DNA of 55,908 nt from a virus. Position numbers and translations under genes: made by a program. The stretch is from IMG/VR virus record IMGVR_UViG_3300034198_019998, positions 1 through 55,908 of that record. The stretch is one strand, 5' to 3'. Shown one piece after another: positions 896 through 33,900 of the stretch. The number at the start of each line of letters is the position of its first letter. Within the stretch, counting starts at the first letter, position 1. The notes under the pieces were generated by a model, which saw only the letters and a list, made by a program, of their open reading frames with translations, was not told the origin of the DNA and did not search any database.

Positions 896-953
896 AAGTA
901 TTTTATTATGTTGTACTTAGACAAAAAATGCGTCTCGTGTTTTCACTCGATCA

Positions 954-1134: not shown

Positions 1135-1161
1135 ATTAGACCGTGTTTTTTTAGCTATCCG

Positions 1162-2835: not shown

Positions 2836-3079
2836 TATGAAAGGCGTTTTTTATTGCGAGGTGCGTCGGCCTTATCATACTATCCCAAACATTGGTCAAG
2901 ACATTTTCCCAAACTTCACTCGACACGTGGGGAGCGGTATTAGGATGTAGGTTATCCCAGATAACACCGTCGATTATTGGTAATAACTCCAACAACATAC
3001 GATCCCGGACCTTGATCTGGGCTATATCCAAAATATGGGAACTATTCTCGATGCAGGTGCCTTGAGATAAATCTCTCAT
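2825..3079 (-). CDS. tetrapeptide-repeat small protein (84 aa)
   Basis: The N-terminal half is only loosely periodic (MRDLSQGTCIENSSHILDIA); the C-terminal half shows clear tetrads (VSSEVWENVLTNVWDSMI). The start overlaps the stop of the 3076-3315 gene by four bases (ATGA). No recognised domain. Confidence 0.55.
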   Translation of the reverse strand: MRDLSQGTCIENSSHILDIAQIKVRDRMLLELLPIIDGVIWDNLHPNTAPHVSSEVWENVLTNVWDSMIRPTHLAIKNAFHNDR

Positions 3080-3315
3080 CGGGGCTCGACACCATCATTT
3101 GGGAAATAGATCCGAATGTTGTTCACGATATTGTCGGTTACCTGGCTATATAGATTCTCCCAAATGTGATTACAGATACCAGTCGCAAGGTGTGAGTTTC
3201 CACGGGTTATCAAAGGCGCCCAAGCACTGTACCAGACATCGTCCCGCACAGCATTATTGAGGGCGTACTCCAACTTGCGGGTCGTACTTACAACACTGTA
3301 AGGGTATTTACTCAT
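3076..3315 (-). CDS. tetrapeptide-repeat small protein (79 aa)
   Basis: I chose ATG 3315 (MSKYPYSVV), which overlaps the end of the upstream CGTSAC gene (stop at 3308-3310), over a longer frame reaching 3369. The body has x-x-N/D-V/I tetrads near both ends (NNAVRDDVWYSAW; HIWENLYSQVTDNIVNNIRI). It is the third of three tandem tetrad genes in this cluster. Confidence 0.55.
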   Translation of the reverse strand: MSKYPYSVVSTTRKLEYALNNAVRDDVWYSAWAPLITRGNSHLATGICNHIWENLYSQVTDNIVNNIRIYFPNDGVEPR

Positions 3316-3760
3316 AGTCTTTACAAACAAGTTCCTCTTCGTGCAGTTCGTACATCCTGTCCAGGACATCCTGGAGTGTGGGCGGTTTTTGGTAATGCTC
3401 GGGGTAAATGATCATTTTCCAATTTTCCGCAGAAGATCCGAAGAAATCCTCCAGGACCATCTCACAGACAAATTCATTATTTTCCTTTAGCCTTACCAAG
3501 GCGTTACGCACATTTTCACCACTGCTCCAGAAGAAGCTATCCGGGAACAGTACGGGTAGGTGGCCTACCAAACAGGCAGACGTACCACACTCAAGCTTAC
3601 GCCCGCGGCGGTGGCGCTCAGGCCACTCTTCGCGTGCAGTCTCAAGGTCATGCGGACTGGCGGCCGAAATATAAGTTCCAATGTTAAAACGCTGCGGCTC
3701 ATCTTCCATCAAATTGTGGAGGTAATTGAGCAATTTAGTTCGCCTTTCAGCTTTGTTCAT
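3308..3760 (-). CDS. CGTSAC.VGHLP paralogue (150 aa)
   Basis: A helical N-terminus (MNKAERRTKLLNYLHNLMED) leads to the motif CGTSACLVGHLPVLFP around residues 58-73. A later FFGSSAENWKMIIYPEHY segment matches the 1596-2171 protein. It is shorter, lacking the cysteine-rich insert. The pair flanks a group of tetrad-repeat genes, which suggests duplication of a small gene cassette. Function unknown. Confidence 0.7.
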   Translation of the reverse strand: MNKAERRTKLLNYLHNLMEDEPQRFNIGTYISAASPHDLETAREEWPERHRRGRKLECGTSACLVGHLPVLFPDSFFWSSGENVRNALVRLKENNEFVCEMVLEDFFGSSAENWKMIIYPEHYQKPPTLQDVLDRMYELHEEELVCKDYE

Positions 3761-8064: not shown

Positions 8065-8586
8065 TTATTTACGGTGTATTTTATTCAAATATTCGTCCAT
8101 AACCTGCTGGAGTGTCTTGATATTTTTGACCAACACCAGGCGGGTTCTGTACTTATAAGAAAACATTTTAGCCTTAATTCGGAACACATCAGTCAGATGG
8201 CCCTTGGCGTCAATGACCACATTGCCGGGATGTACGGGATCTGTGGCATTTTTTCTTTCTGGTCCCAGTAAGAAATCTGATTTGTAAGTTATGGAACGAA
8301 TTGCCGCCCCATCCACATCACGAAATCCTTCCTGTAACTGGAACTCAGGTTGAAGGTGTAGATGTCCTTCGGGAATGTTTTGTTTTAAGATCGTGTAGAA
8401 CTTTGCCTCAAGTTTTGAGGCGAAAACAATACCTCCCACCGTACGCTCGGAAGCCTTCGACACTTTTATCCTCCCATGTTTCGACACGGCATCTTCCAGC
8501 AAATCTTTATCAGTGATCTGCTCGATAGCCTCGGAGGAAAGATCCGAGAGTTTTACTCTAAGTCTTCTGGCTTGTTTTCTGCCCAT
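8065..8586 (-). CDS. DUF1064-like phage nuclease (173 aa)
   Basis: The pattern GGIVFASKLEAKFYTILK...QPEFQLQEGF...ITYKSDFLL...VVIDAKGH matches DUF1064, a phage family with a PD-(D/E)XK-like nuclease core. The conserved E (KLEAKFY), D (YKSDFLL) and D-x-K (VIDAKG) can serve as metal ligands. It is likely to cut branched or specific DNA during replication or recombination; this is family-level inference. The N-terminal 50 residues are basic and helical. It overlaps the end of the large virion-type gene upstream by 34 bases. Confidence 0.75.
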   Translation of the reverse strand: MGRKQARRLRVKLSDLSSEAIEQITDKDLLEDAVSKHGRIKVSKASERTVGGIVFASKLEAKFYTILKQNIPEGHLHLQPEFQLQEGFRDVDGAAIRSITYKSDFLLGPERKNATDPVHPGNVVIDAKGHLTDVFRIKAKMFSYKYRTRLVLVKNIKTLQQVMDEYLNKIHRK

Positions 8587-9884
8587 TGCCCTTCGCCTCC
8601 GGCGATACTACCCATCAAAGAATCTACAGCATCTTCGTCTTCGGCCTCACGCTCGTCTGCCCGAGCATCCTCAGCTTGCTCCTCATAATCCTCGTCTGCG
8701 TCTGATTGGGATTCAGACATGTCAGATTCGGTCTCTATGTTGATAGGAGTTTGCGTAGGATCTTCTTCAAATAAAGCCTCATCCAGCAGCGATGCCAGCT
8801 CAGGATCCTCGGCGGCCGGTAAAGCCATCGATGCCACTTTGGAAAATTCCTCGTCCCCTAATTTTTCGGACCAAAAACTATAACGGTCGCTCGTGCCGAG
8901 AATAGCGGCAATCTTTACCAACGCGTCCCTGGATTCTTCGCTAAAGCTAGAAGCCAGCTTCACGCTAGCAGGCGCCATATCATAAAACTCAGCGCAGGCC
9001 AATGTTTCAACAATGGGACGCAGATAGGCAGACTTCACGCAACGCGTGACCGCCATTTGTATACGAGAAGCATCCGTAACCTTAGAGGAAGCAGACTTGA
9101 CTACGTCAAACATGCTCTCGACCCCCAGACTCAGACCATGCTCGCAAATTTCCTGATGCCTACCCTGGGCGACTGCATGAACGATGTCGCGCAAATCCGA
9201 ATGTGCAGAAGAATTGCTCATGGCAATTTTCACCAAAGATTCCAGCGCGTCGTCGTCCATGCTGGAAGCCTTGTACATATCGTCTTCGGACATACTCTCC
9301 TCAGTATCTTCTTCGGGATTTTCGGTTGCTTTTCGACGAACAACTACACGCTTAGGACCAATGGACTTTGGTGGTTTGGCACCTGGAAAATATTTGTTAA
9401 GTCCCTTGTACGTAAGCGCACCACTGGCGAGCATCGTAAGCAATAAACCAGCTATCGGCGTAGCCAATGTAGCATCGCCAGGATATATAGGTGCACCCGG
9501 GGCATCGGAGGCTTTTTTCGTTTTCTGCGCCTCTGCCTCCTCTAGGATTCTTTTAGTGTATGCGACTTGCGCATTATCCAGTCGCTGTTGCAGCTCACGC
9601 TGCTTGATACGCTGTTGAATCTCCCGTACCAAGGCAAGCGAGCCTAAGCCTGTAAGTACCGCCCCAGTCAAGCCAACCGCAGTCGCCGCAGTAGCCTTTT
9701 TCGCGGTACCGTCGGCGGGCAAATCGATATACAAAACATCGTCGTCCGCGCCAGTTTGAGTTTTAGTCTCCTTGGAAAGAGAATTCAAAAAATTGGCCAA
9801 GGCGATTGAAAGCCCCACAGAAGTACCTGCGGCAGCTCCGCCCGTGAGAAGCTTGACGATTTTTTGTTTATCTCTAGGATCCAT
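8553..9884 (-). CDS. putative virion membrane protein with K-x-A motifs (443 aa)
   Basis: N-terminal hydrophobic, glycine/alanine-rich segments (about residues 12-34, 62-85 and 138-158) suggest membrane insertion or a flexible internal virion protein. The central part repeats short motifs of the form h-K-x-A-A/S (YKASSMDDD, VKIAMSNSS, VKSASSKVT, VKLASSFSE, SKVASMALP). The last 80 residues are very acidic. No enzyme motif seen. It sits in the portal-containing operon, so a structural or ejection role is inferred. Confidence 0.65.
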   Translation of the reverse strand: MDPRDKQKIVKLLTGGAAAGTSVGLSIALANFLNSLSKETKTQTGADDDVLYIDLPADGTAKKATAATAVGLTGAVLTGLGSLALVREIQQRIKQRELQQRLDNAQVAYTKRILEEAEAQKTKKASDAPGAPIYPGDATLATPIAGLLLTMLASGALTYKGLNKYFPGAKPPKSIGPKRVVVRRKATENPEEDTEESMSEDDMYKASSMDDDALESLVKIAMSNSSAHSDLRDIVHAVAQGRHQEICEHGLSLGVESMFDVVKSASSKVTDASRIQMAVTRCVKSAYLRPIVETLACAEFYDMAPASVKLASSFSEESRDALVKIAAILGTSDRYSFWSEKLGDEEFSKVASMALPAAEDPELASLLDEALFEEDPTQTPINIETESDMSESQSDADEDYEEQAEDARADEREAEDEDAVDSLMGSIAGGEGQWAENKPEDLE

Positions 9885-9894
9885 GTTGGTGTGG

Positions 9895-10392
9895 TTAGTT
9901 CTTTTCTACGATCTTAAGATACTTGAATTTGTATACTTGTGCTAGAATTTTCCAATTTGCAGTCTTTTCACTCCATTGCTTGTCCAGGATCAATACCATA
10001 GACCTGGGAGCATGATGTGACTGTGCTCCGGCCATAAGCTTATTTAGCTCAAGTACACTGTCCGGGCTGGCGAGGTCGAATACCTCCATTAAGGGCCCTA
10101 CCTTCCTTACGGTCTCAGGATATCTCGTATATTGGTCCGCGTAAGACGGATCGTCCGAATACTCCTTCTGATTTCCCTCCCCCAGGAAGAAGTCGTACGG
10201 ACGCGCAGGGTCGCGTGAGGCTTTGCTCTCTGGGGTGTATTCGTATTCTAAAGAAGGCTCCTCTTGCGGCAACAACTCTTCAGGAACAACCTGTCCGAAG
10301 TGCAACGCGGAAGGATCTTTTGCTACGCCCCCTCCCAAATCAAAATGCGTATCAATTTCTTCTAACTCTTCTGGCGTCAAAACAGCATTCAT
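9895..10392 (-). CDS. hypothetical protein (165 aa)
   Basis: A proline- and acid-rich N-terminal half (about residues 1-90) looks disordered. The C-terminal half (VFDLASPDSVLELNKLMAGA...) is probably folded. It contains one EKTANW motif of the K-x-A type. It sits in the virion-gene operon between two membrane-type proteins. Function unknown. Confidence 0.6.
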   Translation of the reverse strand: MNAVLTPEELEEIDTHFDLGGGVAKDPSALHFGQVVPEELLPQEEPSLEYEYTPESKASRDPARPYDFFLGEGNQKEYSDDPSYADQYTRYPETVRKVGPLMEVFDLASPDSVLELNKLMAGAQSHHAPRSMVLILDKQWSEKTANWKILAQVYKFKYLKIVEKN

Positions 10393-10421
10393 ATTACAGG
10401 GTAAAAAAATAACATTCTAAT

Positions 10422-11057
10422 TCAAATAATATCCCTGGTAATGCGCGACAGCTCTTTTTCTGAAACAGGGCTTTTTTTCGCTGCAAGCTGGGCTTCAATT
10501 TCATCCGTCAGCTGGTTGTAATAATCTACCTTTTGCCTCATTGCTTCCAGCTTAGGCTCATCTTCAGCAATACTGCGGTTAGCCAGCCAAGTCAAGGCCC
10601 CACCGCCCACTCCGGTAGCCGCCCCTAAAGCAAGAATCGATTTTATTGCCTGAGGTGTTAAGTTAAACAGCGCAGATGCAGTCGCCGTAGCAGGACCCAT
10701 CGCAGATTTTTCAAAACGAAGATCGTTATCAGTGACCATTGCTTCCTTACGTATGGTTTGATGCACTTTGCCGACAGCCGAAACTGCAGCATCGTAATAG
10801 TTATCAAGTGTCGGCCACCACGGATTTGCTTCAGCAAGCTCCGAGTATACATGGAATGCCAATTTATCCATATTCCCCGAGTTACGGTAAGCATCAGCGG
10901 CATACTTACACATCATACGCTGCACCGCACCGTAACCAGGTAGCTGGTGGTTTGAGATTGTTTCCGTAGTAGCTTTTTTATACAGCACTTCCTCCGGATC
11001 GCAACCCGACACAGCAGCGGCGACAGCCATCCCTAAACGATATGAGTGAGTTTCCAT
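10422..11057 (-). CDS. putative virion-associated protein (211 aa)
   Basis: A helical protein with several K-x-A motifs (LYKKATTE, CKYAADAY, IRKEAMVT, FEKSAMGP) and one hydrophobic stretch near residues 130-155 (ALFNLTPQAIKSILALGAAT). The C-terminus forms a charged helix. No enzyme motif. It has the same composition style as the 8553-9884 and 11069-12208 proteins, consistent with a structural or ejected protein. Confidence 0.6.
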   Translation of the reverse strand: METHSYRLGMAVAAAVSGCDPEEVLYKKATTETISNHQLPGYGAVQRMMCKYAADAYRNSGNMDKLAFHVYSELAEANPWWPTLDNYYDAAVSAVGKVHQTIRKEAMVTDNDLRFEKSAMGPATATASALFNLTPQAIKSILALGAATGVGGGALTWLANRSIAEDEPKLEAMRQKVDYYNQLTDEIEAQLAAKKSPVSEKELSRITRDII

Positions 11058-11068
11058 TGAGCTATAAG

Positions 11069-12208
11069 TTAAAACCTTCTCCCACTAAAATCAATCCCAG
11101 ACATAGAGGGCCTTCCTGTAGAGGTGCGAGGTTGGGAATTTCCAAATAAAGCATTACCCATAACACCGCCTAGCATAGCCCCGAGAACCGTGGCGCCTAG
11201 TCCTTTACCCATCAGGAACCTTGCGACGATTACACCAATAGCCGCACCACCGGACATTGAAACGAGGCGTTGAAGCTCGCGGGCAGAATTTGCGTCAAGA
11301 GAACTTACCCCTGACATTAACTGTGCCCGCTGATTGAACGACAACCCAGGCGCAGCTTGGAGCATAGACATCAGAGAGCGTACAGAAGCTTGCGCTGCTT
11401 GCGTATTCATTTCAGGACTACGCCAAGCAGAAGCTTTTTGCAGTTGGGAGGGAGGCGGCGGCTGAAATTTGTCACGCAAAGAACGCAGCTTCTCAATGAG
11501 ATCCCCTGCAGGGATGCCTAAAAACTTAGGCTGTGCCCCTTGAGTAGATGTTTGTTGGGGAGAACTGAATTCTGCACCACTGCCGGGTAAGTATCTGGGG
11601 GTATCCGCAGACGGCGCACCGATCGGAGCTTGTACCGGTAAGGTCGGGTTACTTTCGGGAGCGTATTTGGGGAACTTATTTTGATAATACTGGCGGTGAT
11701 GTGAACCCCCCAAACCTGCAGCACCCCCAATCCCAGCCCCAAGCAGTGCTGATTGCCAGTAGGGCATTTCCGACTTGCCTTGCGCTCGAAGCACGGCATT
11801 CAACAGCAAACCAGCGACTGTACCCGTAGCCGCTCCAGCAGCACCACTCTGCCCATAACCTTGCCCCCATAAAAAATCCGAAGCCTTGGAAACCCCGGAC
11901 AAAATACCTGGGCCGAGTTTGTTCCCTATGGCATATGCTGGATTAGCTTGGGGCTGCAGCGGGTGCCGATATGCCTGCATGTGGTCAAGCATAGATCCTT
12001 TACCTTGCCGCACACGTTCTGTAGCCTCCGCTACAGGGGTGTACATCAGTGTCTCCCTTTTCAAGGAAGAATGAGGATCTTTTACTTTCGTATAGGCACC
12101 AGGGCCCATAGCCGCAGACAAGACAGAGTCCGCTACTAGCGGTAGAGCCAAAGCGCCCACCGCGGTCGCCGTTTGAGAAATTTCAGCTTGCTTGTGTAGA
12201 CCTTTCAT
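11069..12208 (-). CDS. glycine-rich virion/membrane protein (379 aa)
   Basis: Starts at ATG 12208 (MKGLHKQAEISQTATAVG), touching the upstream stop; an in-frame TTG lies one codon earlier. Several glycine/alanine-rich hydrophobic segments (about residues 120-140, 155-170 and 325-355) are separated by a proline/serine-rich linker (about 185-260). Two K-x-A motifs occur (HKQAE and QKASAW). This composition is common in phage ejection or tape-like internal proteins, but no family is recognised. Confidence 0.6.
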   Translation of the reverse strand: MKGLHKQAEISQTATAVGALALPLVADSVLSAAMGPGAYTKVKDPHSSLKRETLMYTPVAEATERVRQGKGSMLDHMQAYRHPLQPQANPAYAIGNKLGPGILSGVSKASDFLWGQGYGQSGAAGAATGTVAGLLLNAVLRAQGKSEMPYWQSALLGAGIGGAAGLGGSHHRQYYQNKFPKYAPESNPTLPVQAPIGAPSADTPRYLPGSGAEFSSPQQTSTQGAQPKFLGIPAGDLIEKLRSLRDKFQPPPPSQLQKASAWRSPEMNTQAAQASVRSLMSMLQAAPGLSFNQRAQLMSGVSSLDANSARELQRLVSMSGGAAIGVIVARFLMGKGLGATVLGAMLGGVMGNALFGNSQPRTSTGRPSMSGIDFSGRRF

Positions 12209-12501
12209 CAAAGATACTGCCGTTTACGTTCCAATGAAGGACCATAACCATTACCTGTAATAATCTGGTCCGTATTAAATTCCGGGTCTGTGGGTAACAA
12301 GTGCTGCGTGGGGCGTTGCGGGTCCGTTTCGTCGGAGTTGCGCGGGGAGTTGGGAATGCCCCTGATGTTATCTTGCGTGGGGTGCGGTGTGCTGCCCCCA
12401 GACATGCGAGTTGTCTTAGCTACTTGTCGAATTGTCCGGGCCACTGCAGCGGCCTTTACGCTAACATAGGCTTTCCTAAGAGCTTCGCTTCGAATTTGCA
12501 T
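12208..12501 (-). CDS. hypothetical protein (97 aa)
   Basis: ATG 12501 (MQIRSEALRKAYVSVKAAA) is preferred to a TTG at 12534 with no ribosome-binding site. An alanine-rich basic helix is followed by a hydrophilic tail rich in proline and asparagine (TPHPTQDNIRGIPNSPRN). It directly follows the portal gene, where small head-connector or chaperone proteins are often found. No family recognised. Confidence 0.5.
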   Translation of the reverse strand: MQIRSEALRKAYVSVKAAAVARTIRQVAKTTRMSGGSTPHPTQDNIRGIPNSPRNSDETDPQRPTQHLLPTDPEFNTDQIITGNGYGPSLERKRQYL

Positions 12502-12539
12502 TAGAAAGTATACAGCGAATTCTTCGAAAACCAAGTTTA

Positions 12540-14339
12540 TTACCCTTGCACCATTTGAGGTGCCGAAGCGCGGCCTTGGGATGCCGCATCTCTGCGAATG
12601 TCCTCCATGAATTTCCGCACCAGAGCTTCCATATTTGGATTCACTGCCAACTCCGCTAGCTTTTGGCGAGTTACCTGTGGATCCGCAGCAGCGATAAGTT
12701 CTTGAGCAATAGACATTGCTTCCTCCTGAAGTCGTACAGGGTTTCCGCTGCCGACAGGACCGCCACCCCCACCAGGAGCACCACCGCCACCTGCTTGTTG
12801 TGCCGCAATAACGCCCTCCATAGAACCTTCCTGCATTTCCTTCTGGGCTTGCTGCTGAATTTTGGAAACCTCTTTCTGGATCTCCGCATCTTCCTGTGCG
12901 CGTTGACGTGCAGCTTCGACAGGGTCGTCGATGCCCAGAGGGCGGTACGCCACTTGTCGCGGGATTTCGGCCCCAGCCGCAAGTTGCATGTAAATGCTTC
13001 TCTTCTCAAGATCATCAGCCATTCTGGGAAGCTGAAGGCTCACACCAATTTGCTCACGTCCCATATAGTCCAGAACACGCTCTGTGGTCCACTTCAGTAG
13101 ACGGTCGAATCCACGATGTAGGAAGTGAAAGCTATTCTCGAACAGACGAAGAGCCGTAGGCACCTGCTGTACTTGCAGGGACCCACGGAAAAGCTCCGCT
13201 GGGTAACCCATGGAGTCCAGGAGATCATTCACTTGGAACTCCATCAAATCCTTAGGCGTCAAGGATTTGCCTTGTGATCCCACCTCTTGATAAGTAACCG
13301 GGAAGGGCAGGGCGTACATTGAGAAGGGATCCTTCCTGCGCTCCTTGATCATCCGACTCATCTCTGCCCGGTAAGGTCCGAACAAGGTTTGAATGGTCGC
13401 ATCTTGCACATTACCACTCACCTGTGGAGAGAAAATACGGAAAGGAAGCATGTAGTCCATGCCCACCACTTCGTCGATTTTCTTGTAAACTTGCAATTGG
13501 TGTATGGATCTGTAATTAGCGATGATCTCCGGAAGCCCCCAACCGTAATTCGATATACCTGAAATAGTGGGCGCCTTGAGATGGAAAATCTGATGCTCCT
13601 TAAACAGGAAGTCTTTGTCTTCCGCAATAGCTTGAAGCATAGGCATCGGAAGATCATTGACTTGATATAGCGTGCCGTCTTTTACAGCCTTAGCCAGCTC
13701 GGGCTCAAAGCGCCAAATGACTTGCGTACGCTTACTAGTCCAAGAATGCTGGAGAGTAACGTATCTGGGATCCAGCTTGTGGAATCTAATCTTGGACATG
13801 TCCTTAACTGGACGATCGATAAACTTCAGTTTAATCGTCTTTTGGGCACTGCCACCATTCGGAGTATGCATGGGGTCTGGAACCTCGTACACCATCTCCT
13901 TCCAGTGGTACTTGACCTTGGAGGTAGGGAACATGCTCAAATCATATTCTTTGTACTTACCTCGGGGGTCGCGTAAAAAGCGGTTGAAGGGAAAATCCAG
14001 GCGTACGAATCCATTACCGTAAGCCGCCCACTCTTCTCCCAGCTCCAACATCGTACCCCAGAGGTCCAGATCGGTAGCTAAGAATTTTCTCAACTCGTCC
14101 CGCTCACGTTCGTCCCCGGCTTCGCCAGTGAAGTTAACGTCAGTAACGAAGTGGCTGACCACTCGTATGGAAGCCCTCCGATACTGAGGGTTCATGTAAT
14201 AAAGGTATAAACAGAAATCCAAAGCAGTCTCCAACTCAGTTGGAAACGAAGCATTAGACGGCAACATGAAGGGATCGCTAAATTGCTTTCCCGTTGTTCC
14301 GTTTGTGAAAGGGGCCAGATAATCGCCGTTGGCTGCCAT
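12540..14339 (-). CDS. portal-like protein (599 aa)
   Basis: Forms the dodecameric DNA gateway at a head vertex in family terms. Supporting sequence: an early YYMNPQYRRASIRVVSHFV segment, EEWAAYGNGFVRLDFPFNR, then IFHLKAPTISGISNYGWGLP with a helix IIANYRSIHQL, and a late crown-like helical region with a glycine-rich hinge and charged coiled coil (EIQKEVSKIQQQAQKEMQ). Length and domain order fit phage portal proteins. It lies in the virion operon but 31 kb from terL. No protease motif. I am fairly confident, but a profile search would settle it. Confidence 0.75.
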   Translation of the reverse strand: MAANGDYLAPFTNGTTGKQFSDPFMLPSNASFPTELETALDFCLYLYYMNPQYRRASIRVVSHFVTDVNFTGEAGDERERDELRKFLATDLDLWGTMLELGEEWAAYGNGFVRLDFPFNRFLRDPRGKYKEYDLSMFPTSKVKYHWKEMVYEVPDPMHTPNGGSAQKTIKLKFIDRPVKDMSKIRFHKLDPRYVTLQHSWTSKRTQVIWRFEPELAKAVKDGTLYQVNDLPMPMLQAIAEDKDFLFKEHQIFHLKAPTISGISNYGWGLPEIIANYRSIHQLQVYKKIDEVVGMDYMLPFRIFSPQVSGNVQDATIQTLFGPYRAEMSRMIKERRKDPFSMYALPFPVTYQEVGSQGKSLTPKDLMEFQVNDLLDSMGYPAELFRGSLQVQQVPTALRLFENSFHFLHRGFDRLLKWTTERVLDYMGREQIGVSLQLPRMADDLEKRSIYMQLAAGAEIPRQVAYRPLGIDDPVEAARQRAQEDAEIQKEVSKIQQQAQKEMQEGSMEGVIAAQQAGGGGAPGGGGGPVGSGNPVRLQEEAMSIAQELIAAADPQVTRQKLAELAVNPNMEALVRKFMEDIRRDAASQGRASAPQMVQG

Positions 14340-17007: not shown

Positions 17008-17724
17008 TTAATCAGGCAATTTCAAAGTCTTTCCATCCAGATCTTCTGGGCTCATGTACTTTAATTTGCCGGTACTTCTTTGACGGAAAAGTTGGTATAG
17101 TTTCCCGTCAGAACCGATCTTAGTTCCCCACGCCATCCGCGTGTCGATACCGATCTTTTCCGATTCTGGACCTTCAAGCGTAGACAAGAATCCGAACTGA
17201 GATCCATGAATGGCCTGCATATCTTCAGTAATTGCCTGGTCACTACCAATACCCCCTGGTCCCATCTGGGTCGCTCTCCTGGACTGCTCCATTAAATGTA
17301 GAGGGTTTATCTCCTCCAAAGGCGCACTGAGGGGATTACCCAGAAGCATACCATTTGCGTACCCATCAAACATGAATGGATGCAACATTTTTAGGTTTTT
17401 GCGTTTAGCCGACATGTACATGAGCTTTTGGCGAGTCTTGTCAGCATCGAGCTTTACGCGCTCCGCCAAAAGCTTATCCGTGGTATGAAATCTTTTGAAT
17501 ACCAAGCTGTCACGTTCGTCCGTAGGCTCTAAGCCTCTATTGACAGCAAGAAGCTTCTCCGTCGCAGCCAGTAACCCGTCCACACCTACGGGGGCGTATT
17601 CTTCCCCATCGTCGTCAGGATCCTTGCGAGGTTGCACCTCGGGTACTGTTTTACGTAATGCATTTACGACAGGTGATACCGCAGCATTCTTCGTAATAAT
17701 GTTATATATGTCTTCCCGGGTCAT
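17008..17724 (-). CDS. rpoB: RNA polymerase beta subunit, central fragment (238 aa)
   Basis: This is the part of a multisubunit beta subunit around fork loop 2. Residues 140-158 (NPLHLMEQSRRATQMGPGG) align without gaps to NPLSEITHKRRISALGPGG of bacterial RpoB. Residues 172-193 (IHGSQFG...LEGPESEKIGID) align to the VHP.H.GR...ETPEG.NIG segment. Upstream, PTDERDSLVFKRFHTTDKLL matches the D.ID.LGNRR region. The residues equivalent to E. coli H526 and S531 are Q147 and T152, so rifampicin resistance is expected. The fragment stops about 45 residues beyond that segment. No catalytic C-terminal beta or beta-prime is present here. Gap of 18 bases to the kinase-fold gene. Confidence 0.8.
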   Translation of the reverse strand: MTREDIYNIITKNAAVSPVVNALRKTVPEVQPRKDPDDDGEEYAPVGVDGLLAATEKLLAVNRGLEPTDERDSLVFKRFHTTDKLLAERVKLDADKTRQKLMYMSAKRKNLKMLHPFMFDGYANGMLLGNPLSAPLEEINPLHLMEQSRRATQMGPGGIGSDQAITEDMQAIHGSQFGFLSTLEGPESEKIGIDTRMAWGTKIGSDGKLYQLFRQRSTGKLKYMSPEDLDGKTLKLPD

Positions 17725-17742: not shown

Positions 17743-18591
17743 TTAGAGGTTTGCCAATAGACGCCGTAAATAATCGATAGGATTCCTTCCTTCCGTTGTG
17801 GCTTTGTGCTCTCCCCTTAGTTTTTCAAGAGGTTGAAACTTGAAAGGCATGGGGTCGCTAATTACTGGGCGACCTTCTGCAGTCCACATTACATTGTGTG
17901 GGCGCCTAGTGTCTAAATTAAAATCCCTAATCTTATACCTCTCAGTATCGGTTTTAGCGACCAATTCGCCTCGGGTGTTTTTCTTGGAATTGAGGAGCGA
18001 ACGTAAAGGTTCTACACTTTTAGCCTCCGGCCTACCGGTACGCCAAAGATTCCGTATCTCGTCATTTAAGTAGCCGCGCTGCTCCGTCCGATACGGAGTG
18101 GTTTCAAGTTTTTGCAAATTCTTCGACGCCTGCACTAAACTGCGCATTCGTGCACGCAGAGCGGAAGAAGATATACCTTCCTGCAATCGCTCTACAGTGT
18201 AGCCGGTTGGATGCTGCGCGAACACCTTGGGAAAGATGTCCGGATTACTCTTCATGATGTTAACCCGCGTGGGGATATCAACGTCACTCAGCATGCTAGT
18301 AACTTTGCCAGGACCGAGTACGTTAGGGCTAGTAAACTCCGAAGATAACGGACTCTTGAAGAAAGTCTTGGTTGCCGTAGGCCCAACGCCTCCAGTGAAT
18401 GAGGGGAATACGGCACCCTCAGCGCCCACGCCGAGAGGGTTCTTGGACGTCAGTCGTACTTTGCCTGCCGGGATGACATTAGCCAACCTGTGCTGATTAC
18501 CTCGCGACAACTGCTCAACCACGCGCAGCCACTTGGGGGAAGCCGCCTTTATGAGTTGGGAGATCCGCACTGGGCTTTCAACGTGGTTCAT
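17743..18591 (-). CDS. kinase-fold protein between RNA polymerase pieces (282 aa)
   Basis: A protein-kinase-like fold is suggested by a glycine loop at residues 54-62 (GVGAEGAVF), a lysine pair at 75-79 (TKTFFK), a hinge-like YTVERLQEG at 131-139, a catalytic-loop-like DFNLDTRRPHNVMW at 223-236 (D227, N233) and ISDPMPF at 244-250 in the position of DFG. HRD and DFG are altered, so activity is uncertain. An N-terminal LIKAASPK carries the K-x-A-A/S motif of this operon. It overlaps the beta N-terminal gene by ATGA. A role in modifying RNA polymerase or host proteins is inference. Confidence 0.6.
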   Translation of the reverse strand: MNHVESPVRISQLIKAASPKWLRVVEQLSRGNQHRLANVIPAGKVRLTSKNPLGVGAEGAVFPSFTGGVGPTATKTFFKSPLSSEFTSPNVLGPGKVTSMLSDVDIPTRVNIMKSNPDIFPKVFAQHPTGYTVERLQEGISSSALRARMRSLVQASKNLQKLETTPYRTEQRGYLNDEIRNLWRTGRPEAKSVEPLRSLLNSKKNTRGELVAKTDTERYKIRDFNLDTRRPHNVMWTAEGRPVISDPMPFKFQPLEKLRGEHKATTEGRNPIDYLRRLLANL

Positions 18592-21290
18592 GAATTAAGG
18601 CGTGCGCGTGCTTGTTCTAAATCTTCGGATGCTTGCTTAAGCATTTGGGAAAAGGATGCAGCTTTCTCAACCGGCTGCGGCATCCACGAGTAAGGCATCT
18701 CTTCCCCTCTCAGTTGTCGCGCGGCCCTCTCCGGGACGTGTCCTACCAATCCTTCGGGTGTGTCTTCCAGTCGGTAGCGTATCGCGATATCCTTCCGGTG
18801 TTTGTCCGCCGGAGTTATGTCGGTATCGTTTGGGTCGAAGTGAGAGCTGTTTAGGTATGCGTTGTAGTGTGCATACCTCAGCTTCTCCAGCGTAGCGTTA
18901 TCGACGGTGATTGGCTGTAAATCCGATGAGTGCGTAGAAGGGGTGTAAAAAATATCCTTACCCTTCCTATCCTTGATGCGCTTTACCAGTTCGTCCAATA
19001 CCGTACTTGGATCTTCCACGTCGACAGACAATTCGACTTCATTAGTGTGCGGGTTGTTCACGGCCAGACCTTTATGTCCCAGCTCTTCCAGTATCTGGTG
19101 GAACTCCTTACGCAGGCCCATCCCTTGAGTCTGCTCGCCGGAAACAACGAAGTTATATGCAGCTTTCTCCTGGCCCGGGTATTTAGCTAGATACCCATGG
19201 TCCCCCCAAGATTGGAAACCCCTGTCTTTATAGAATTTTAGAAGTACGTCAGCCGGTACGGCTTTATCGGCCATTGGATCTGGCTTCACTACAAAAGCTC
19301 TGTCCTGCCCCTCTAGCATGTCTAATAGTGTGACCAGCGCGGAAGCCAACCCCTTACGCCTATGGTCCGTGCGGGTTTTTAACGCTGTTATCTCAGACAC
19401 TTTGTCAGAAAAATCTTGGACGGCGATATGCGCTCTGGGTGATTGATCAACGTCGTCCTCAGTCGCAGGTAGCGCATATACTCGAGATTTGTCATTTATA
19501 CGCCCAAGGACCAACGTATCCGGGTTACCGCCAATATCCAGATCCCAAGACTCTTCAATGTCTGGAGTAGCAAGCATAGTTTCCCGCCCGCTGTCAGTTT
19601 CACCATAATTACGTATAACATTCGCTGTCTTAGCCAGGATGGCCTGCCTAGAATCCTCAGCGACGGCTTGTTTCGATAACGCATAAGCTTCGTCTACTTG
19701 TATTGTAGGCGGAATTTTAGAAGATGCCATGTGCAATCTGAAGCCAGTAGGCACATGGGTGACTCCTGGATACGGGCCTCCGGGAGAGTCGATGACCCAT
19801 TCGGTGGGGCGATCTGTCATTGAGCGCTGTATCAGAAAATGCTTGTGCCCGTAGCGCTTGGCGTCTGAGTGCGACTTGGCTTCGAGTAGCAATTGCAATT
19901 GTGCTGCTCTGTCATCTTCGCTAGCAGCTTTTTTGAATTTGCTGGATTTATATTCATCCATCTGACGCTTCAAAACGTCAGCGGATGATTCGTCCAGATA
20001 TACCAAAGGGTCGACCGCCCAGTTACGTAAGGCGTAGGCTCTTCTGGGGGTTGGGTTTTTCAGGAATTGAGACAAGTGTCTAGCCTTAAAGGACTTCCAT
20101 CTCTTTATCTGTCTATCGTCATCTCCCGTACGCTTACCATCAGCGTATCCGTAATACCAGTCTAACCAACCTAGTTGGTTACTACCAGGAGGCATCCATT
20201 CCTTTGGCCAAGAGCTCATCCCTGCAAGTCTATTACCTACGCGCCCATACAGGTTGCTGTATTGTTCTTGCAGATCAGAAGGTTTGAGATCCGGAGAAAA
20301 ATTCGTGTCAGGTCCGGTGTTATCAATTTCGTCCCACTCTTCCCCAGCACACTTAAACATGCACATATCCGTGAAGGCTTCAAAGCATTCGTCGGGAGAT
20401 AGGTCCGGCTTGAACTTCTCGGTGTGTGCGCGAGATGCAATTTTCTCCATCATTACTTCCCTGCCCGCCCAACGTGCCTGCCACTCCGCAGATTTGGACA
20501 TCGAGAAAAGATTAGGTAAATTCTTGCTGATTACCTTGGCGTTGACCTGTGCGTCGTCCAGTGACATCCTGACAGCTTTGACCTTGTCCTCACGACTAGC
20601 ATCAGCGGATCGCATCCTTGCAGGCACAAGCCTCTCGTAAGCTTTATCAAACACACGGGAGTCGTATTTAGCAGCATTTGCAGAAAATATCTCATCCCCC
20701 CACATTTTTTTGAGGCGATCGTCGGGTACTCCAAGGTCTTTAAGCAGGGAGTACATGTGCATGTTAGCCTGCCCAAGCTTAAGCCTGTATTGAGTGGTAT
20801 CGGGTTCGAAGCCTACCCGAAAAGCACCCCTGGACTGTTTAAGATTAAACTGCGTTTCCAGATTACCGTTGTTCTGCCTGCGGGTGTAAACCCCGGGAAG
20901 AAGGCGGGACTGCATGATGGTGGTGTACTCGTTACCACCATGGATAAAGGTTCCGCGATTGGTGAGGTAAGGTACCCGCATCAGGGATACCTTGTTCTCA
21001 TCAAGCATATCACCTGTCTTCTCATCAAACAGACGTACAGTACCGCGTAGTCGGCGGGACAAGTGGCGTTCCTCTAATAGTGCCTTTTTCTGCTCGTCTA
21101 ACGTGAAATTCTCCGGCCCGTCGTAATCAACATCTGCTACTTCCATACGCACACCTCCCCAAGACATGGGGTAAGATGAGATCAAAGCCTTTTTGGTGCG
21201 GTCGTAGATATCTGTCCGCGCAGTGTCAAAATCGCTAAAATCCCGCAATTTGACATTGGGGGGCATTTCTATTTCTTCGGGCGCAGGCAT
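18588..21290 (-). CDS. rpoB: RNA polymerase beta N-terminal piece fused to GNAT-like domain (900 aa)
   Basis: Starts at ATG 21290 (MPAPEEIEMPPNV); a longer frame would run through the terminator and promoter above. Residues about 60-200 match the RpoB N-terminal region: MRVPYLTNRGTFIHGGNEYT and LLPGVY (104-135) align to IPLMT..GTFVING.ER...SPGVF, followed by F..GFEPDTTQYRLKL. Residues about 357-430 (GWLDWYYGYADGKRTGDDDR...RRAYALRNW) look like an uncharacterised viral domain. Residues about 585-705 resemble a GNAT acetyltransferase, with EITALKTRTDHRRKGLASAL as the acetyl-CoA motif. K-x-A-A/S motifs recur (KKAASEDD, VEKAASFS, MLKQASED). The usual beta-2 lobe appears replaced. It probably acts in a phage RNA polymerase; the remaining subunits are not in this window. 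Confidence 0.75.
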   Translation of the reverse strand: MPAPEEIEMPPNVKLRDFSDFDTARTDIYDRTKKALISSYPMSWGGVRMEVADVDYDGPENFTLDEQKKALLEERHLSRRLRGTVRLFDEKTGDMLDENKVSLMRVPYLTNRGTFIHGGNEYTTIMQSRLLPGVYTRRQNNGNLETQFNLKQSRGAFRVGFEPDTTQYRLKLGQANMHMYSLLKDLGVPDDRLKKMWGDEIFSANAAKYDSRVFDKAYERLVPARMRSADASREDKVKAVRMSLDDAQVNAKVISKNLPNLFSMSKSAEWQARWAGREVMMEKIASRAHTEKFKPDLSPDECFEAFTDMCMFKCAGEEWDEIDNTGPDTNFSPDLKPSDLQEQYSNLYGRVGNRLAGMSSWPKEWMPPGSNQLGWLDWYYGYADGKRTGDDDRQIKRWKSFKARHLSQFLKNPTPRRAYALRNWAVDPLVYLDESSADVLKRQMDEYKSSKFKKAASEDDRAAQLQLLLEAKSHSDAKRYGHKHFLIQRSMTDRPTEWVIDSPGGPYPGVTHVPTGFRLHMASSKIPPTIQVDEAYALSKQAVAEDSRQAILAKTANVIRNYGETDSGRETMLATPDIEESWDLDIGGNPDTLVLGRINDKSRVYALPATEDDVDQSPRAHIAVQDFSDKVSEITALKTRTDHRRKGLASALVTLLDMLEGQDRAFVVKPDPMADKAVPADVLLKFYKDRGFQSWGDHGYLAKYPGQEKAAYNFVVSGEQTQGMGLRKEFHQILEELGHKGLAVNNPHTNEVELSVDVEDPSTVLDELVKRIKDRKGKDIFYTPSTHSSDLQPITVDNATLEKLRYAHYNAYLNSSHFDPNDTDITPADKHRKDIAIRYRLEDTPEGLVGHVPERAARQLRGEEMPYSWMPQPVEKAASFSQMLKQASEDLEQARARLNS

Positions 21291-21302
21291 AATGTCGTAG
21301 TT

Positions 21303-21332
21303 ACTATAACCCCACTCAAGGCAAGTTATCAA
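21303..21332 (-). promoter_or_regulatory. sigma70-like promoter for the RNA polymerase operon
   Basis: On the minus strand TTGATA (21327-21332) and TATAGT (21303-21308) are separated by 18 bases, each one mismatch from consensus. Transcription would start near 21296, giving an almost leaderless message for ATG 21290. It lies just below the terminator of the previous operon. Confidence 0.6.
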
Positions 21333-21347
21333 TGAGCGAATACATAA

Positions 21348-21381
21348 AAACAAAGGCCAGGATTTATCCTGACCTTTGTTT
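21348..21381 (-). terminator. intrinsic terminator
   Basis: Fifteen-base arms (21348-21362 with 21367-21381) around a four-base loop, with one G-T pair. On the minus strand it ends in a run of five T's. It ends transcription of the 323-residue gene 11 bases beyond its stop and isolates the RNA polymerase operon. Confidence 0.8.
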
Positions 21382-23171: not shown

Positions 23172-23654
23172 TCAATCTATTATTTCATTTTTCTCGTAAG
23201 GAATGCCATTGGCCTCATAATAAAGCATCATCTCGATGATGTCAGACTTAGTCAAACCCTTTTTACAAACAGCGCAAGAACCCACATGGTAAAAGTGCTT
23301 CTTGTCAAAACGGAACCCATGAGGGTCTACACAAGGATCTAGCCACCCAATCACCGAACGACATCTCACGCAGACCAAGCGCGCCTGGTCTACGAAATCG
23401 TTACGGCAAGGAGGACACACCGGGTCAATTGCGGTTATGTGCCCCGTGTTTACAATTGCTACCCGCTCGCAGGGAACGAGCTTGTTACACGCACACCTAA
23501 CTTTACTAGGGTCCGCTTCGGGATCTGCAACCGTGCTAGGCTTGCCCATCTGCGCAAGCAAACCAACAACGTCTTCAGCTGTTGGTTTCGGGTGCGTCTT
23601 TGACCATGCCAGAAACACTTCGCGCTTTTTGGTGGCTTCTTCTTCAGGATTCAT
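23172..23654 (-). CDS. multi-cysteine zinc-binding protein (160 aa)
   Basis: Cysteine pairs occur as CAC, CPPC, CVRC and CAVC (with single cysteines between) across residues 53-130, enough for two zinc sites. The N-terminal 50 residues are helical; the C-terminus (KSDIIEMMLYYEANGIPYEK) is a helix. It overlaps the start of the recQ region by 11 bases. Possibly a nucleic-acid-binding partner of the helicase, by position only. Confidence 0.6.
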   Translation of the reverse strand: MNPEEEATKKREVFLAWSKTHPKPTAEDVVGLLAQMGKPSTVADPEADPSKVRCACNKLVPCERVAIVNTGHITAIDPVCPPCRNDFVDQARLVCVRCRSVIGWLDPCVDPHGFRFDKKHFYHVGSCAVCKKGLTKSDIIEMMLYYEANGIPYEKNEIID

Positions 23655-26301
23655 GTACGCGGAAATAGGATTCGATGAACTCGTGTTTTTCCGAGTCTGG
23701 TAAATTTACATACTTCAGCACGTCGTCAAGTTTACGGTAAGCATCATCCCGTTTTAAAGCGAGGCGATCAAAATCAACAAGAGAAAGGTCTCCGATGATT
23801 CTAGTCTCTGCCCCAACATAAGGATCGCAAAACCTAATGAAGCCGCTCTCAGCCCAACGCTTAAACCAGCCCCTCACAGTGCTGTACCCTACGCCTACGG
23901 TGTCGGCAAACTCGTTCAAATCGAACTCATAAAATCCTTCATCGTTCGGAATACCTAAGCTATCTACTACACGCATGTAGTCGTGGTATCGCTCGTTGTC
24001 GGAAGGTACATCCGCATCTGTTTCACGAAGCTTGCATATTTTTTTATCTACCTGGTCACGTACGATAACGTTAGAGCCCTTGAGGGTCTCAAATATAGCC
24101 CGCATACCAAATTTTGAAACATTCGCTTTAGTAGATATTTCATCGGCCGTGATCTTGCATACGCCCGATCGATCAGCAGAGAGTTTCAGCGCGTGGTAGA
24201 CTTTCTTTATGTCGCCGACAGGAGGATGTCCTGTACGTAAGAAGAAGTTCTGCGTTTCCAGACTGTCCTGAGAAAAGTATGTAATACAGATCGAGTATTT
24301 ACCGTCACGCCCGGCACGGCCTACCTCTTGAGCGAGAGCTTCGATAGTACCAGGAATATCACGGTGAATAACAGCTCTAACATCGGGCTTATCCACGCCC
24401 ATACCAAAGGCGTTAGTTGCCACAACAATGTTCGCGCGGCCTTCCATGAAATCATCTTGGTTCGCACGTTTAGCCCCTGGAGAAAGATCCCCGTGGAAAA
24501 TTCTTACTTGTTTACCTCGTAAGTTCCGCGACAAAGTTTCAGCCAGCTCCTCAACTTTTCTGCGAGTGGAACAGTAAACGATAGTGCTACCTTCCGTCTC
24601 CCTGATTTTATCAGCTATAGAAATATCACTTACTAGATTATCGCTCCTAAGATCCAGATTTGTGCGCCGGGGATAGAAGGTGAGTTTGCGTGCGTGCGCT
24701 AATCCCAGTACGCGGCGAACATCGTTCTCCACCTGCTGGGGACACGTAGCTGTAAAAGCGGCTACCACCTTGGGATTGTATTCCCGAATGAAATCGCCCA
24801 CCTTACAATAGCTATGCCTAAAATTGTCACTCCACTGGGATAAGGTGTGACAATTTCCAACTACCAGGGCTTTCCCAGAACCGCGTACAATAATGTTCCC
24901 ATGCGGTACGCGCACGCAATACACCAGGCCGTCATAAGATTCCTCGGTGCGGGACAAACACTGAGTACCAATCCAATCACGCTCAGTGTTTACAAAAAGA
25001 CGCCATACTGTGGAGTAATTGGCAGACCTTTCATCGTGCTGGGGTACTAAATTTGTTTTATATCCTGCTAATATCGCTACAGCCTGTACGAAGTCTACGT
25101 TCTCCTTAATTATGGAGGAGTAGTACAAGCAACCCTGGTAAGGTTCACTACCATCCCATAGAGCGACCTCGCGGATAAACTCTGCAGCTACTTCCGAGGT
25201 CATAGATGCAAAGTCAAACATATTGGATAGGACCTTAGAGAATCCAGAAACCTTGTGTACCAAGAATCTTCTGCGAGGGATACGATTACCCGTATCCAAT
25301 TTCTCTCTTTCATTGGTCACCTCACTATATGAAAGTCCGGTGAGCTCAAGTAAACTTAGAAACCTACTTATTTTGCGCTCCTTTGAAAAAGAAAATGCAG
25401 CAGTGATACTTTCGTCGGGATGTACATAATGCGAACTACCATCAGCCTGGTAAGCGATGCAAAGCCTATCCATAGCGGTAAGCTCGGTTTGATTGCCCGC
25501 TTCATGTTTTGCCGCTACGAGAAGTCTTTTCGTGTGATTGAACTTAATCCTTGAGACTGTCTCCTTTTTCCAGCGATCTCCGTAGAAAGCCAGTAGCTCA
25601 TGATTTGGGGTCATACGCAAATCACAAAGCTGCCCAGAGTGCAGGCGTATAAGGTCTCCCTTGTATTCCTGACGAATCACCTTATCAGGGGAAACAAAAG
25701 ACAAGGTCTTAGTATCTGGATCGACCTGAGCGACTTTCGCGTCGTCCTGTAGTGCGTCAAAGCGAACAAACCCTTTGTCTGTAAATATTTCTACTTCCGG
25801 GGCAAAGCATTCGTCCATCACAACAAAGTCGGGATTAACGTGCCCCATGGCGGTTTTGAATGCCTCATTATTGAGGCGTTCGGGTGCGACATATAGGAAA
25901 TTTAATTCCCCGTCCTGCCAACGCCTGGCCGCATCAAGATTTTCCCCATCTGTCTGCATCCCAGACATCGCAGCGGCGGGAATACCCATACGATGCAATC
26001 CTTTAACTTGGTCACGCATTAGCGCTACCAGTGGGCTGAAAACAATAGCCTTCCAATCCATACATAAAGTCGGGATTACAAAACATGCAGTCTTCCCGGT
26101 ACCAGTAGGCAAAATACATATAGTATCCGCCTGCGACATGATCCGCATGATTACGGGCTCCTGACCTTCCCGTAAGCCGTCATATTTCATACGCTGTAGC
26201 ACGGGGGCCAAATTGGCTAGTCCCTTGCGTACAAGTTCCCAATCGGGCTCGTCCGGGCGATCAGGCCAACGGTCTCTTATACTTAATTCTAAATTATTCA
26301 T
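23644..26301 (-). CDS. recQ: RecQ-family DNA helicase precursor containing an intein (885 aa)
   Basis: A 3'-5' ATP-dependent DNA helicase for recombination and fork repair. Motif I LPTGTGKTACF (residues 64-74), Ia VFSPLVALMRDQV, a split Walker B (VMDE at 161-164 continued by CHTLSQWSDNFRHSY at 484), FTATCP, and motif VI ALAQEVGRAGRDGK are visible. Residues 165-483 are an intein. Without it the protein is 566 residues, a normal RecQ core with a helix-turn-helix-type C-terminus (STKANVSKFGMRAIFE). The helicase cannot be active until the intein splices, because it splits the DECH box. Confidence 0.88.
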   Translation of the reverse strand: MNNLELSIRDRWPDRPDEPDWELVRKGLANLAPVLQRMKYDGLREGQEPVIMRIMSQADTICILPTGTGKTACFVIPTLCMDWKAIVFSPLVALMRDQVKGLHRMGIPAAAMSGMQTDGENLDAARRWQDGELNFLYVAPERLNNEAFKTAMGHVNPDFVVMDECFAPEVEIFTDKGFVRFDALQDDAKVAQVDPDTKTLSFVSPDKVIRQEYKGDLIRLHSGQLCDLRMTPNHELLAFYGDRWKKETVSRIKFNHTKRLLVAAKHEAGNQTELTAMDRLCIAYQADGSSHYVHPDESITAAFSFSKERKISRFLSLLELTGLSYSEVTNEREKLDTGNRIPRRRFLVHKVSGFSKVLSNMFDFASMTSEVAAEFIREVALWDGSEPYQGCLYYSSIIKENVDFVQAVAILAGYKTNLVPQHDERSANYSTVWRLFVNTERDWIGTQCLSRTEESYDGLVYCVRVPHGNIIVRGSGKALVVGNCHTLSQWSDNFRHSYCKVGDFIREYNPKVVAAFTATCPQQVENDVRRVLGLAHARKLTFYPRRTNLDLRSDNLVSDISIADKIRETEGSTIVYCSTRRKVEELAETLSRNLRGKQVRIFHGDLSPGAKRANQDDFMEGRANIVVATNAFGMGVDKPDVRAVIHRDIPGTIEALAQEVGRAGRDGKYSICITYFSQDSLETQNFFLRTGHPPVGDIKKVYHALKLSADRSGVCKITADEISTKANVSKFGMRAIFETLKGSNVIVRDQVDKKICKLRETDADVPSDNERYHDYMRVVDSLGIPNDEGFYEFDLNEFADTVGVGYSTVRGWFKRWAESGFIRFCDPYVGAETRIIGDLSLVDFDRLALKRDDAYRKLDDVLKYVNLPDSEKHEFIESYFRVHES
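24853..25809 (-). mobile_element. intein in RecQ Walker B motif (319 aa)
   Basis: The insertion begins with Cys (CFAPEVEIFTDKGFVRFDAL), has a block B (DLRMTPNHELL), and ends YCVRVPHGNIIVRGSGKALV-VGN before the +1 Cys of CHTLSQ. The penultimate residue is Gly rather than His, a known variant that can slow or alter splicing. The central about 200 residues are long enough for a LAGLIDADG homing endonuclease; only LCIAYQADGSSHYV resembles its first motif, so it may be degraded. Insertion at a catalytic DExH box is typical of intein target choice. Confidence 0.85.
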
Positions 26302-30913: not shown

Positions 30914-33900
30914 TTACGACAGAACGCTATCGAGTTCAAGCCTTTCTTCGGCGTTTGGTTTCGTGCTCCATCGTTTTACGTAATCCGTGTCAATAGGGTA
31001 ATTGAATGTCCTATTTTCCACTGTCCAAGTGTTCATATCGCACATAAAAATTTGGTGCATTTCCGCAACCTTTTGTGCTTCCGATATCGGACACAGGGTT
31101 ACTACAGAATCATATAACACAATAAGGGGCCTTGCTTGCATGGCGTTGGCTACAAAGTAATCCAACAACCAATTGGCGGCCCTTGCGGCGGTGTCCGCCA
31201 CGTTATTTTGCATCGGGAAATTTCTCATTTCCCGCCCAAGAGATGCGAGGTAATTTTTCGCATCTCTTCCCACGGCGGTAGCCATGGGGCAGTGACGTAT
31301 ACGCCCGGAAGGACTTCGATAATGTCCCACTTCCGCGGGAACATTTTCCATGTGCTCCAAGAATGCTACAGCCACAGGCTGGCGTAACCGTAGCGCATCT
31401 AGAACCGCTTGCCCAGTACCTTCTTCGGGTTTTACGCCAGTATCTTGCTCAATCTTTCGCTCTAGGGTCGTAGGAGAAGCTCCGTAGGCAGAGGAGAAAT
31501 TTCCCACCTTACCGAGTCCCTTACGCTCTACATCCTTATTCAATATTTCACGAGGCTTGTGCGTAACCATTTCTGCCAGAGACCAGTGCAAGTCTGCTTG
31601 TGGAGAAATGTAATTACCTTCCGCATCTACATCGAAGTCGGCGTCGGGCGAAAGAAGGTGCCCGTACAATTCCTCTGAAATCCCGAGCAAATTGTCAAAC
31701 AGAACTCGAACAAATTTAGCCTGCCCATTCTCTGTTTTTATCTTTCTATATTGCTGGTCGGGTTCAGTCATGATGCGAATGAGATTCTCATCGCCGCTGA
31801 TGAACGCCAACCCTCTGATCTCAGCAGTCTGGTAATCGGATTCCACGAAACACCAGCCATCCGGAGCTTTGACGCAAGAACGTATGGATGGAGGTTTGGT
31901 TTCCAAATATTTCCGGAAAGCTTCAGGCAAAGTGCCAATTGCATCCGCTTGCTTTAGAGCAATCTGGATACCCTCAGTGATCTTGTCGTTAACCCAGGAA
32001 GGCCAGTTAAGAATATTTGGATTCCAGCTTCTTGGGCGTCCGGTCTCCGTTGTACTCATCTGTCCGTGGACACATCCGTCCGAACAAAGCGACTCATGTA
32101 ATCCTCGTTCTTGGGTGATGTTGCCTTCATCGTCGGTAATGGGCTCCTTGAGGAATTGCTTAGTAATATTACCCACAGCGTTAAGGCGGATCAAATATCC
32201 CAAAACCGAATCATTATGAGTCTCATACAATATCTCCAAGGTTTGTATGTCTGTGGAAGGAGAATACTCTTTACGAGCTTCCGGCGGCATCCTTATAACC
32301 CGGTCCCAAGAAACCGAAGGCAATCCTTTTTCCTTTTTGTTGGTGGATTTAATAGGCATGTAGCCTTTGACCTCGAAAAGCCATCGCATCATTTGAGGCT
32401 TGCTTCTGAGATTAAAACTTGGCGAAGCCACTAAATGATCGAAGAACGGTTTTATCCGGGCAACTCCTGATACGCCGACGTAGCGCTTCACAAGCATCCA
32501 AGGATCGTCTACATCGTCACCTGTAGCTATTTGCCCAATAACTTCCTTATGCAGCTCAAGTAGTTCCACAGTCTGCGGGCCTGTAAGGTTCCCTTTGATC
32601 AAGAACATTTCACGCAGCAGCAAACTTTTAGCCTCCTCGTGCATTGCAATGCGAAGAGCTACTTCCAAGTTCTGCCTAGCAAAACTGTAGAGCTCACGAA
32701 GTTCTGACATTTGCTCAATGTCGATAGGTAGTCCGAGCAAAGAGAACGTCGTGAATATATTAGACGTAAACGGTAAGAATATTTCGTGGTAGTAGTCGAG
32801 CAATCCCTGTTTACGTAAGTTATCATAAATGTAAGGATAAGCCCGCATTACAGTGTCCACGTCACGGCAAGCATACGGAATAAGTATCTCATCCGGTACA
32901 CGCCCATATCCACCCGAGGACAAGCCTTTGCTTTGTTTTTTCCACAAAGTCAGCTCAATGTCATAACGCCCCAAATCCGTGTACTTCATGGCCAGGCGCT
33001 CAAGGCCTAGTTCCTCATATTCGTCGGCGGTCTGCTGTGCGAACTCCGTGTCAAAGACGCACTTGTTGTACCAATCCAATCCTAGCCACGAATACATCCA
33101 CGGGGCATCCGCAGGAAAATGGTGCCCTATGTATTTGCATTCTGGTCGGTTCAGCCAGGAACCAAGAAGCATACCCGCCTTTTGGTAATCCACGTCGAAC
33201 ACATAGTTCAAGGCATCATCCATGAACCTGATGTAAACCGCTTCGCCTGGAGCCCAGCAAAATTGGATAGACCTAAGCTGTCCGTTCACGTGGTTACTCC
33301 CATGCCACTCACAGTCTACCGAAAACAATCTTATATTTTTGGAAGCCCACATGGCTACCAACTTCTGCATCTCATTAGAATTATTAATGGTGATGTAGTT
33401 CGTTGGCTGTGTGTAAACATCAATGCCGGAAAGTGACATGGACAACCTACAGATACTGCGTAGATCCACGCGAAACTTTTCCAGATACTCTGGCTTTATG
33501 AGAGGTAAAGCCATGTTCTCCATCAGATACACCTTGGCGCCGGAGTCGTGATGGAGAAACCAACCTCCACGGACATCCTTGGCTTTCACTGTAATACCGG
33601 AGAGCTCATCAAATATTTTCTTACCTCCAAGGCAAACAATGATTGCAGGTTTTACTTCTTGAATCTCCCGCATGAGAGCCTGCCTTCCCCAATCCATTTG
33701 CTCGTTGGTGGGATTGCTCCTGTTATTTTTAGGAAGCAACCATTTACACCAGGCAGTGAAATAGCATTCCTGCATTTCTATACCCACGCTGGAAGCCAAG
33801 TCTTTGAAAACCGCGCCCGCCTGTCCGCGTAAGTAAGCACCGTCTTGCGTAATAGTACGCCCAGTGACACTTTCGGCTTTCGTGGCGGCTTCCTCCTCAA

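Follow-up and report, generated by a model that had tools for sequence, protein, structure and literature searches.

A probable kinase-fold protein encoded between RNA polymerase beta fragments of a metagenomic phage

The T7 protein gp0.7 phosphorylates the RNA polymerase (RNAP) beta' subunit among other proteins, and a separate shut-off domain forms its C-terminal part (PMC4858673). T7 gp0.7-like kinases, described as nearly confined to Autographiviridae, disarm several bacterial defences, with the homologue JSS1_004 phosphorylating several defence proteins (PMC12345140). The protein detected most in virions of Salmonella phage Arash is its RNAP beta, gp206 (PMC10585845). We found that in Arash and Vibrio phage D69 the N-terminal and middle regions of beta (beta-N and beta-middle) adjoin each other within a single polypeptide (Arash gp206 12-250 and 259-469), which contains beta and the start of beta'. 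Here we compare with these systems a kinase-like gene located between two beta fragments in the window, i.e. the whole 55,908-nucleotide stretch of metagenomic viral DNA that was analysed.

The split beta locus and its variants

The kinase-like ORF (17743-18591) starts with ATG and encodes 282 aa on the minus strand, a detail missing from the first-pass annotation, which was otherwise correct on the ORF. It sits between the beta-N ORF (18588-21353, minus strand), whose stop overlaps its start in an ATGA (18588-18591, minus strand), and the beta-middle ORF (17008-17724, minus strand). The earlier reading of both neighbours as pieces of beta holds. Specifically, the 238-aa downstream product matched Rpb2 domain 3 (PF04565, E 2.6e-7) and corresponds to Arash gp206 259-469, and the first ~285 aa of the 921-aa upstream product (likely start ATG at 21290, minus strand; beta part at residues ~22-289) matched RpoB, i.e. 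RNAP beta chains in the PDB (E 4e-6), as well as Arash/D69 beta. The 921-aa product also has an unannotated domain (~300-448) common to Vibrio phage pVa-21 and a weak GNAT-like match (638-714). A portal-like protein is encoded in the same cluster (12540-14339, minus strand; tblastn to the Arash/D69 portal, E 1e-34 to 2e-36). The window is contained in a longer contig from this phage (73 kb), with which it is identical wherever their overlap was compared, and the other beta and beta' parts were not found in these known 73 kb; G002, a related phage of 204 kb, has them as separate pieces, one at 92.6 kb and one at 106.6 kb. An assembly artefact was rejected as the source of the kinase/beta arrangement, which is identical in the second contig and similar in the IMG/VR contig G010.

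A syntenic orthologue of 347 aa, 37% identical over the full alignment, was recovered on G010 (201-1244, minus strand) by a DNA pattern for N-[VIM]-M-x4-G-x2-x-x-x-D-P, and because it has kept its synteny we regard 17743-18591 as coding. No additional orthologues were found in IMG/VR and genome_contigs. The order common to the two phages is beta-N, a 278-aa ORF (in G010), the kinase-like gene and beta-middle. The 278-aa ORF is zinc-metallopeptidase-like (Zn_peptidase_2 match at E 2e-5, below the cut-off), and it is to this gene that the kinase-like gene of G010 is ATGA-coupled. In a third split-beta phage (L019/G002), a DUF3008 gene takes the place of the kinase-like gene, no kinase-like homologue was detectable, and beta-N is fused in the first split to a 2H phosphoesterase (PF13563, E 1.8e-9; Acb1, E 8e-4, below the cut-off). 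The ATGA coupling to beta-N had been read as a sign that the two products function together, an argument that is weak since the upstream coupled gene is not the same in G010 and DUF3008 stands there in L019/G002.

Across these related phages, one and the same split in beta is occupied by unrelated proteins, namely GNAT-like, zinc-metallopeptidase-like, 2H phosphoesterase with weaker Acb1 similarity, and DUF3008. Among 54 IMG/VR loci with both beta regions, a count that includes some duplicates and leaves out the window phage and G010, beta-N and beta-middle were contiguous at 53 and split at one. Given the differing genes and domains at the split and the contiguity elsewhere, the region resembles a site of variable insertion within a single phage sublineage. 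The C-terminal extensions of beta-N vary as well (L019:5661-7205, L232:2077-5124 and window 18588-21353), being a 2H phosphoesterase with weaker Acb1 similarity, unannotated, or weakly GNAT-like. In addition, apparent intein-like inserts, in some cases more than one, were observed in RNAP beta/beta' proteins of relatives (L019:7932-9383, L064, L067 and L070).

Several other features of the window were noted. Virion and RNAP-cluster proteins repeatedly contain the short motif K[AQEKVIMS]A[SAEVT] (window 18588-21353, 17743-18591 and 8553-12534; L232; L005). Defined post hoc, it occurred 18 times at 8-22 kb of the window against 4.3 in shuffles, 11 times against 3.3 in G010 and 24 times against 7.1 in D69; no enrichment was found in Arash, L019 and L067. 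In the 921-aa ORF it tends toward inter-domain positions, and it is a candidate prohead-protease or targeting site. One instance, KAAS in the N-terminal leader of the kinase-like protein (residues 15-18; 18538-18549, minus strand; KEAS in the orthologue), may be a maturation or capsid-targeting signal. A RecQ-like helicase (23644-26301, minus strand) contains an intein-like insert of ~314 residues (~165-478) absent from its G010 orthologue, and an ORF at 30914-34078 (minus strand) fuses a uracil-DNA-glycosylase-like domain, a 3'-5' exonuclease and a family A DNA polymerase. Many small ORFs based on N-V-x-x-N-V-W/R-x-N-V repeats, present at 1-895 and 2587-3369 and in L008 (1533-5058), seem to form a family of tandem paralogues.

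Kinase motifs and distant relationship to gp0.7

Direct searches of Pfam and PHROGs matched neither the 282-aa protein nor its G010 orthologue to a family (PHROGs: none at E up to 1 and at 0.1, respectively), and the 282-aa protein had no match among PDB sequences, in the phage collection (tblastn) or among genome_contigs. An exact DNA pattern search for PHNVMW recovered the same phage alone. A weak phrog_15752 match in G002 (E 0.037), in a virion-fibre-like protein, appeared to be a chance one.

All the motifs quoted by the first-pass annotation were located, namely GVGAEGAVF (residues 54-62), K75, YTVERLQEG (131-139), LDTRRPHNVMW (226-236) and ISDPMPF (244-250). On the minus strand, the G-loop LGVGAEGAVF (residues 53-62) lies at 18406-18435, with G54 and G56 on family-conserved columns; the VAIK-type Lys75, shared by 52 of the 54 sequences in the alignment and by the orthologue, at 18367-18369; FPKVF...ERL, corresponding to beta4-beta5 and the hinge (residues 120-136), at 18184-18234; the catalytic-loop equivalent DFNLDTRRPHNVM (residues 223-235) at 17887-17925; and the DFG-equivalent VISDPMPF (residues 243-250) at 17842-17865. 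The glycine-rich loop and beta3 lysine (G54, G56 and K75) are all kept in the G010 orthologue, and the metal-binding N233 and DFG-equivalent D246 are invariant in alignment A4, as is P247. The blocks kept between the two proteins are the leader MNHVE...KxASPxW, the G-loop, TK75, FPKxFxQH...ERL, RDFN....PxNxM and VxSDP. The motifs go beyond what chance would give, the DNA pattern for N-x-M-x4-G-x2-x-x-x-D-P having occurred once in the window and not in 100 shuffles.

In IMG/VR, the pattern that recovered the G010 orthologue matched at least 119 stretches (80 of them listed), against 25 chance stretches with a mis-framed version that served as an unplanned negative control, and it revealed a broad phage family with D-L-H-x-x-N-[VI]-M...D-P. 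We found that 46 of 48 aligned members matched PHROG 15752, which carries the T7 gp0.7 kinase annotation, so that the earlier choice of T7 gp0.7 as a reference was apt. The family HMM, into which at least one T7-like relative (L188) went, matched T7 gp0.7 with 110 bits (E 5.6e-36), and a family profile search of the PDB recovered kinases. Such gp0.7-like kinases (L112-L190) were observed on many IMG/VR contigs, contrary to the described near-exclusivity to Autographiviridae; some contigs exceed 200 kb, far too long for T7-like phages. Two tandem copies are present in L152, L158 and L184.

With hhalign, the two orthologues aligned with this family over the N-lobe (residues 37-141, P 1.9e-5, probability 78%), which falls outside the region used for collecting the family, whereas two unrelated alignments gave P values of 0.23 and 0.26. 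All the family-conserved N-lobe columns are present in order (L53, G54, G56, V61, K75, P121, E134 and L136). Local profile alignment of the part ahead of the catalytic loop was better than 1000 of 1000 shuffles for both orthologues (z 5.7 and 5.2), compared with z of at most 3.5 for 74 chunks from other window proteins. The shuffle test depends on gap costs, z for the 282-aa protein falling to about 1.6-2.0 with stiff ones, and a column-shuffled pair-profile test was weaker (z 3.3, 8/1000). A HMMER search with the family N-lobe HMM gave no match. The N-lobe match to the gp0.7-like family, together with motifs in kinase order, bears out the kinase reading, and the 282-aa protein probably has a kinase fold.

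Structure prediction, the check proposed earlier, gave a divided answer. Given the two orthologues and nothing else, AF2 failed to produce a fold (pLDDT 36), but with a 52-sequence kinase-family alignment it yielded a kinase fold with a core pLDDT of about 85-93, comprising beta1-3, alphaC, beta4-5, hinge, helices, beta6, catalytic loop and beta7-9. The top PDB matches of this model were all kinases, Rio2 (Z 9.4) being the best and PRPK scoring 8.6; Foldseek E-values were weak (best 5.6e-3), and the named top matches among viral structures include T7-like phage protein kinases. Because the borrowed alignment consists of kinases, the model indicates consistency and is not independent proof.

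Catalytic residues and possible function

The explanation that we favour, with about even confidence, is that the 282-aa protein is a strongly diverged kinase-fold protein, distantly related to T7 gp0.7 and encoded in the virion-RNAP gene cluster of a large Arash-related metagenomic phage, which would bind ATP-Mg and be packaged, injected and act on host proteins. ATP-Mg would be bound through the G-loop, K75, N233 and D246. The protein would be produced along with the virion proteins, enter the particle together with the RNA polymerase and then be injected, whereupon it may phosphorylate, otherwise modify or bind host proteins, thereby disarming defences or redirecting host functions. If packaged, it would act ahead of any phage gene expression.

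Whether it transfers phosphate is less clear. The Asp five residues ahead of the Asn, found in 72 of 74 members from the pattern scan, is replaced by T228. D227, proposed earlier as the catalytic residue, lies one residue farther from N233 than usual, so that a one-residue insertion in the catalytic loop is required, and its equivalent in G010 varies with the alignment, being either Ala or Asn; the assignment is thus not secure. D223 is kept in G010 by direct pairwise alignment. With the catalytic Asp displaced here and absent in the orthologue, phosphotransfer is uncertain, and it is an even question whether the protein is an active protein kinase. Instead, the protein may be a pseudokinase, or it may use a kinase fold for other chemistry, in either case having kept nucleotide binding (K75, N233 and D246 being conserved) and lost the HRD-type Asp; SelO-type AMP transfer is an example of such chemistry. 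We regard this as a serious alternative, though on balance rather unlikely, since two family members (L176 and L143) have an Asp at the same shifted position, and the AF2 model places D227 after a short strand (beta6, 224-226), where the HRD Asp would lie.

The location of the gene could also mean that its product acts on the split RNAP of the phage itself, for example by phosphorylating beta-N and beta-middle or holding them together, as in both phages with the gene it lies between the two in a tightly packed operon. This is improbable, because L019/G002 has the same split and another gene there, the contiguity of the two regions at nearly all IMG/VR loci makes such a factor unneeded, and the immediate upstream partner is not the same in the two phages. 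Slightly less probable still is a chance resemblance of the motifs in an orphan phage protein, which would fit the lack of a database family match and of an AF2 fold from the orthologues alone but not the independent N-lobe profile match or the fact that it is precisely the kinase positions that the two orthologues have conserved.

As to the target, action on host RNAP had been suggested after T7 gp0.7; the C-terminal shut-off domain of gp0.7 (PMC4858673) is, however, without counterpart here, since the ORF ends 35 residues past the DP motif, and a direct role on phage or host RNAP is unsupported. By analogy with Arash, whose homologous gp206 is abundant in virions and so points to a virion RNAP, the RNAP genes of the window phage are probably virion genes, and it is plausible, from Arash alone, that the 282-aa protein is packaged cargo. 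Since the homologous Arash beta is a major virion protein and JSS1_004 sets a precedent in phosphorylating defence proteins, we favour a packaged and injected protein that probably serves in host takeover or counter-defence rather than in running the phage's own polymerase. More tentatively, and on balance unlikely, the beta split site may be a cargo dock in one phage sublineage, where enzymes (kinase-like, GNAT-like, metallopeptidase-like, and 2H phosphoesterase with weak similarity to the anti-CBASS Acb1), whether joined to beta-N or encoded by genes lying between those for beta-N and beta-middle, would enter the capsid along with the polymerase and be injected as a first strike against the host. 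The split-beta island offers a short list of candidate injected effectors.

Comparison with known kinases and RNAP-encoding phages

The 282-aa protein shares with T7 gp0.7 and JSS1_004 (PHROG 15752) the same motif order and columns, L-G-x-G, K, P, E-x-L, N-x-M, G and D-P, and its DFG-equivalent block, NVMWTAEGRPVISDPMPF, is similar to NIMFSNGDVPYITDPVSF in T7. It differs from the gp0.7 family in having no direct HMM match, a displaced or absent catalytic Asp and a long, poorly modelled insert (~140-220). In addition, it lacks the shut-off domain of T7 gp0.7, which is not present in all gp0.7 relatives either, and its gene adjoins virion RNAP genes, whereas gp0.7 is in an early region. The atypical kinases RIO, COQ8 and PRPK were the best structural matches to the model from the borrowed kinase alignment but have the fold alone in common, with sequence identity of ~15%. 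Kinase-PolyVal (PF18762) of injected polyvalent proteins resembles the present case in the idea of injected enzymes, and one broad-family member had a weak, sub-threshold match to it (E 0.0069); the 282-aa protein, however, had no match and is encoded as a separate ORF.

Metagenomic RNAP-encoding Caudovirales (PMC7481178) are offered for comparison and not as a phylogenetic placement. As in Arash-related RNAP-encoding phages, the portal gene adjoins RNAP beta, and the beta pieces are homologous to Arash gp206. In contrast to the single polypeptide of Arash and D69, beta of the window phage is split at two places, with other genes or domains in the first split, and what appears to be a diverged gp0.7-like kinase lies inside a virion RNA polymerase operon.
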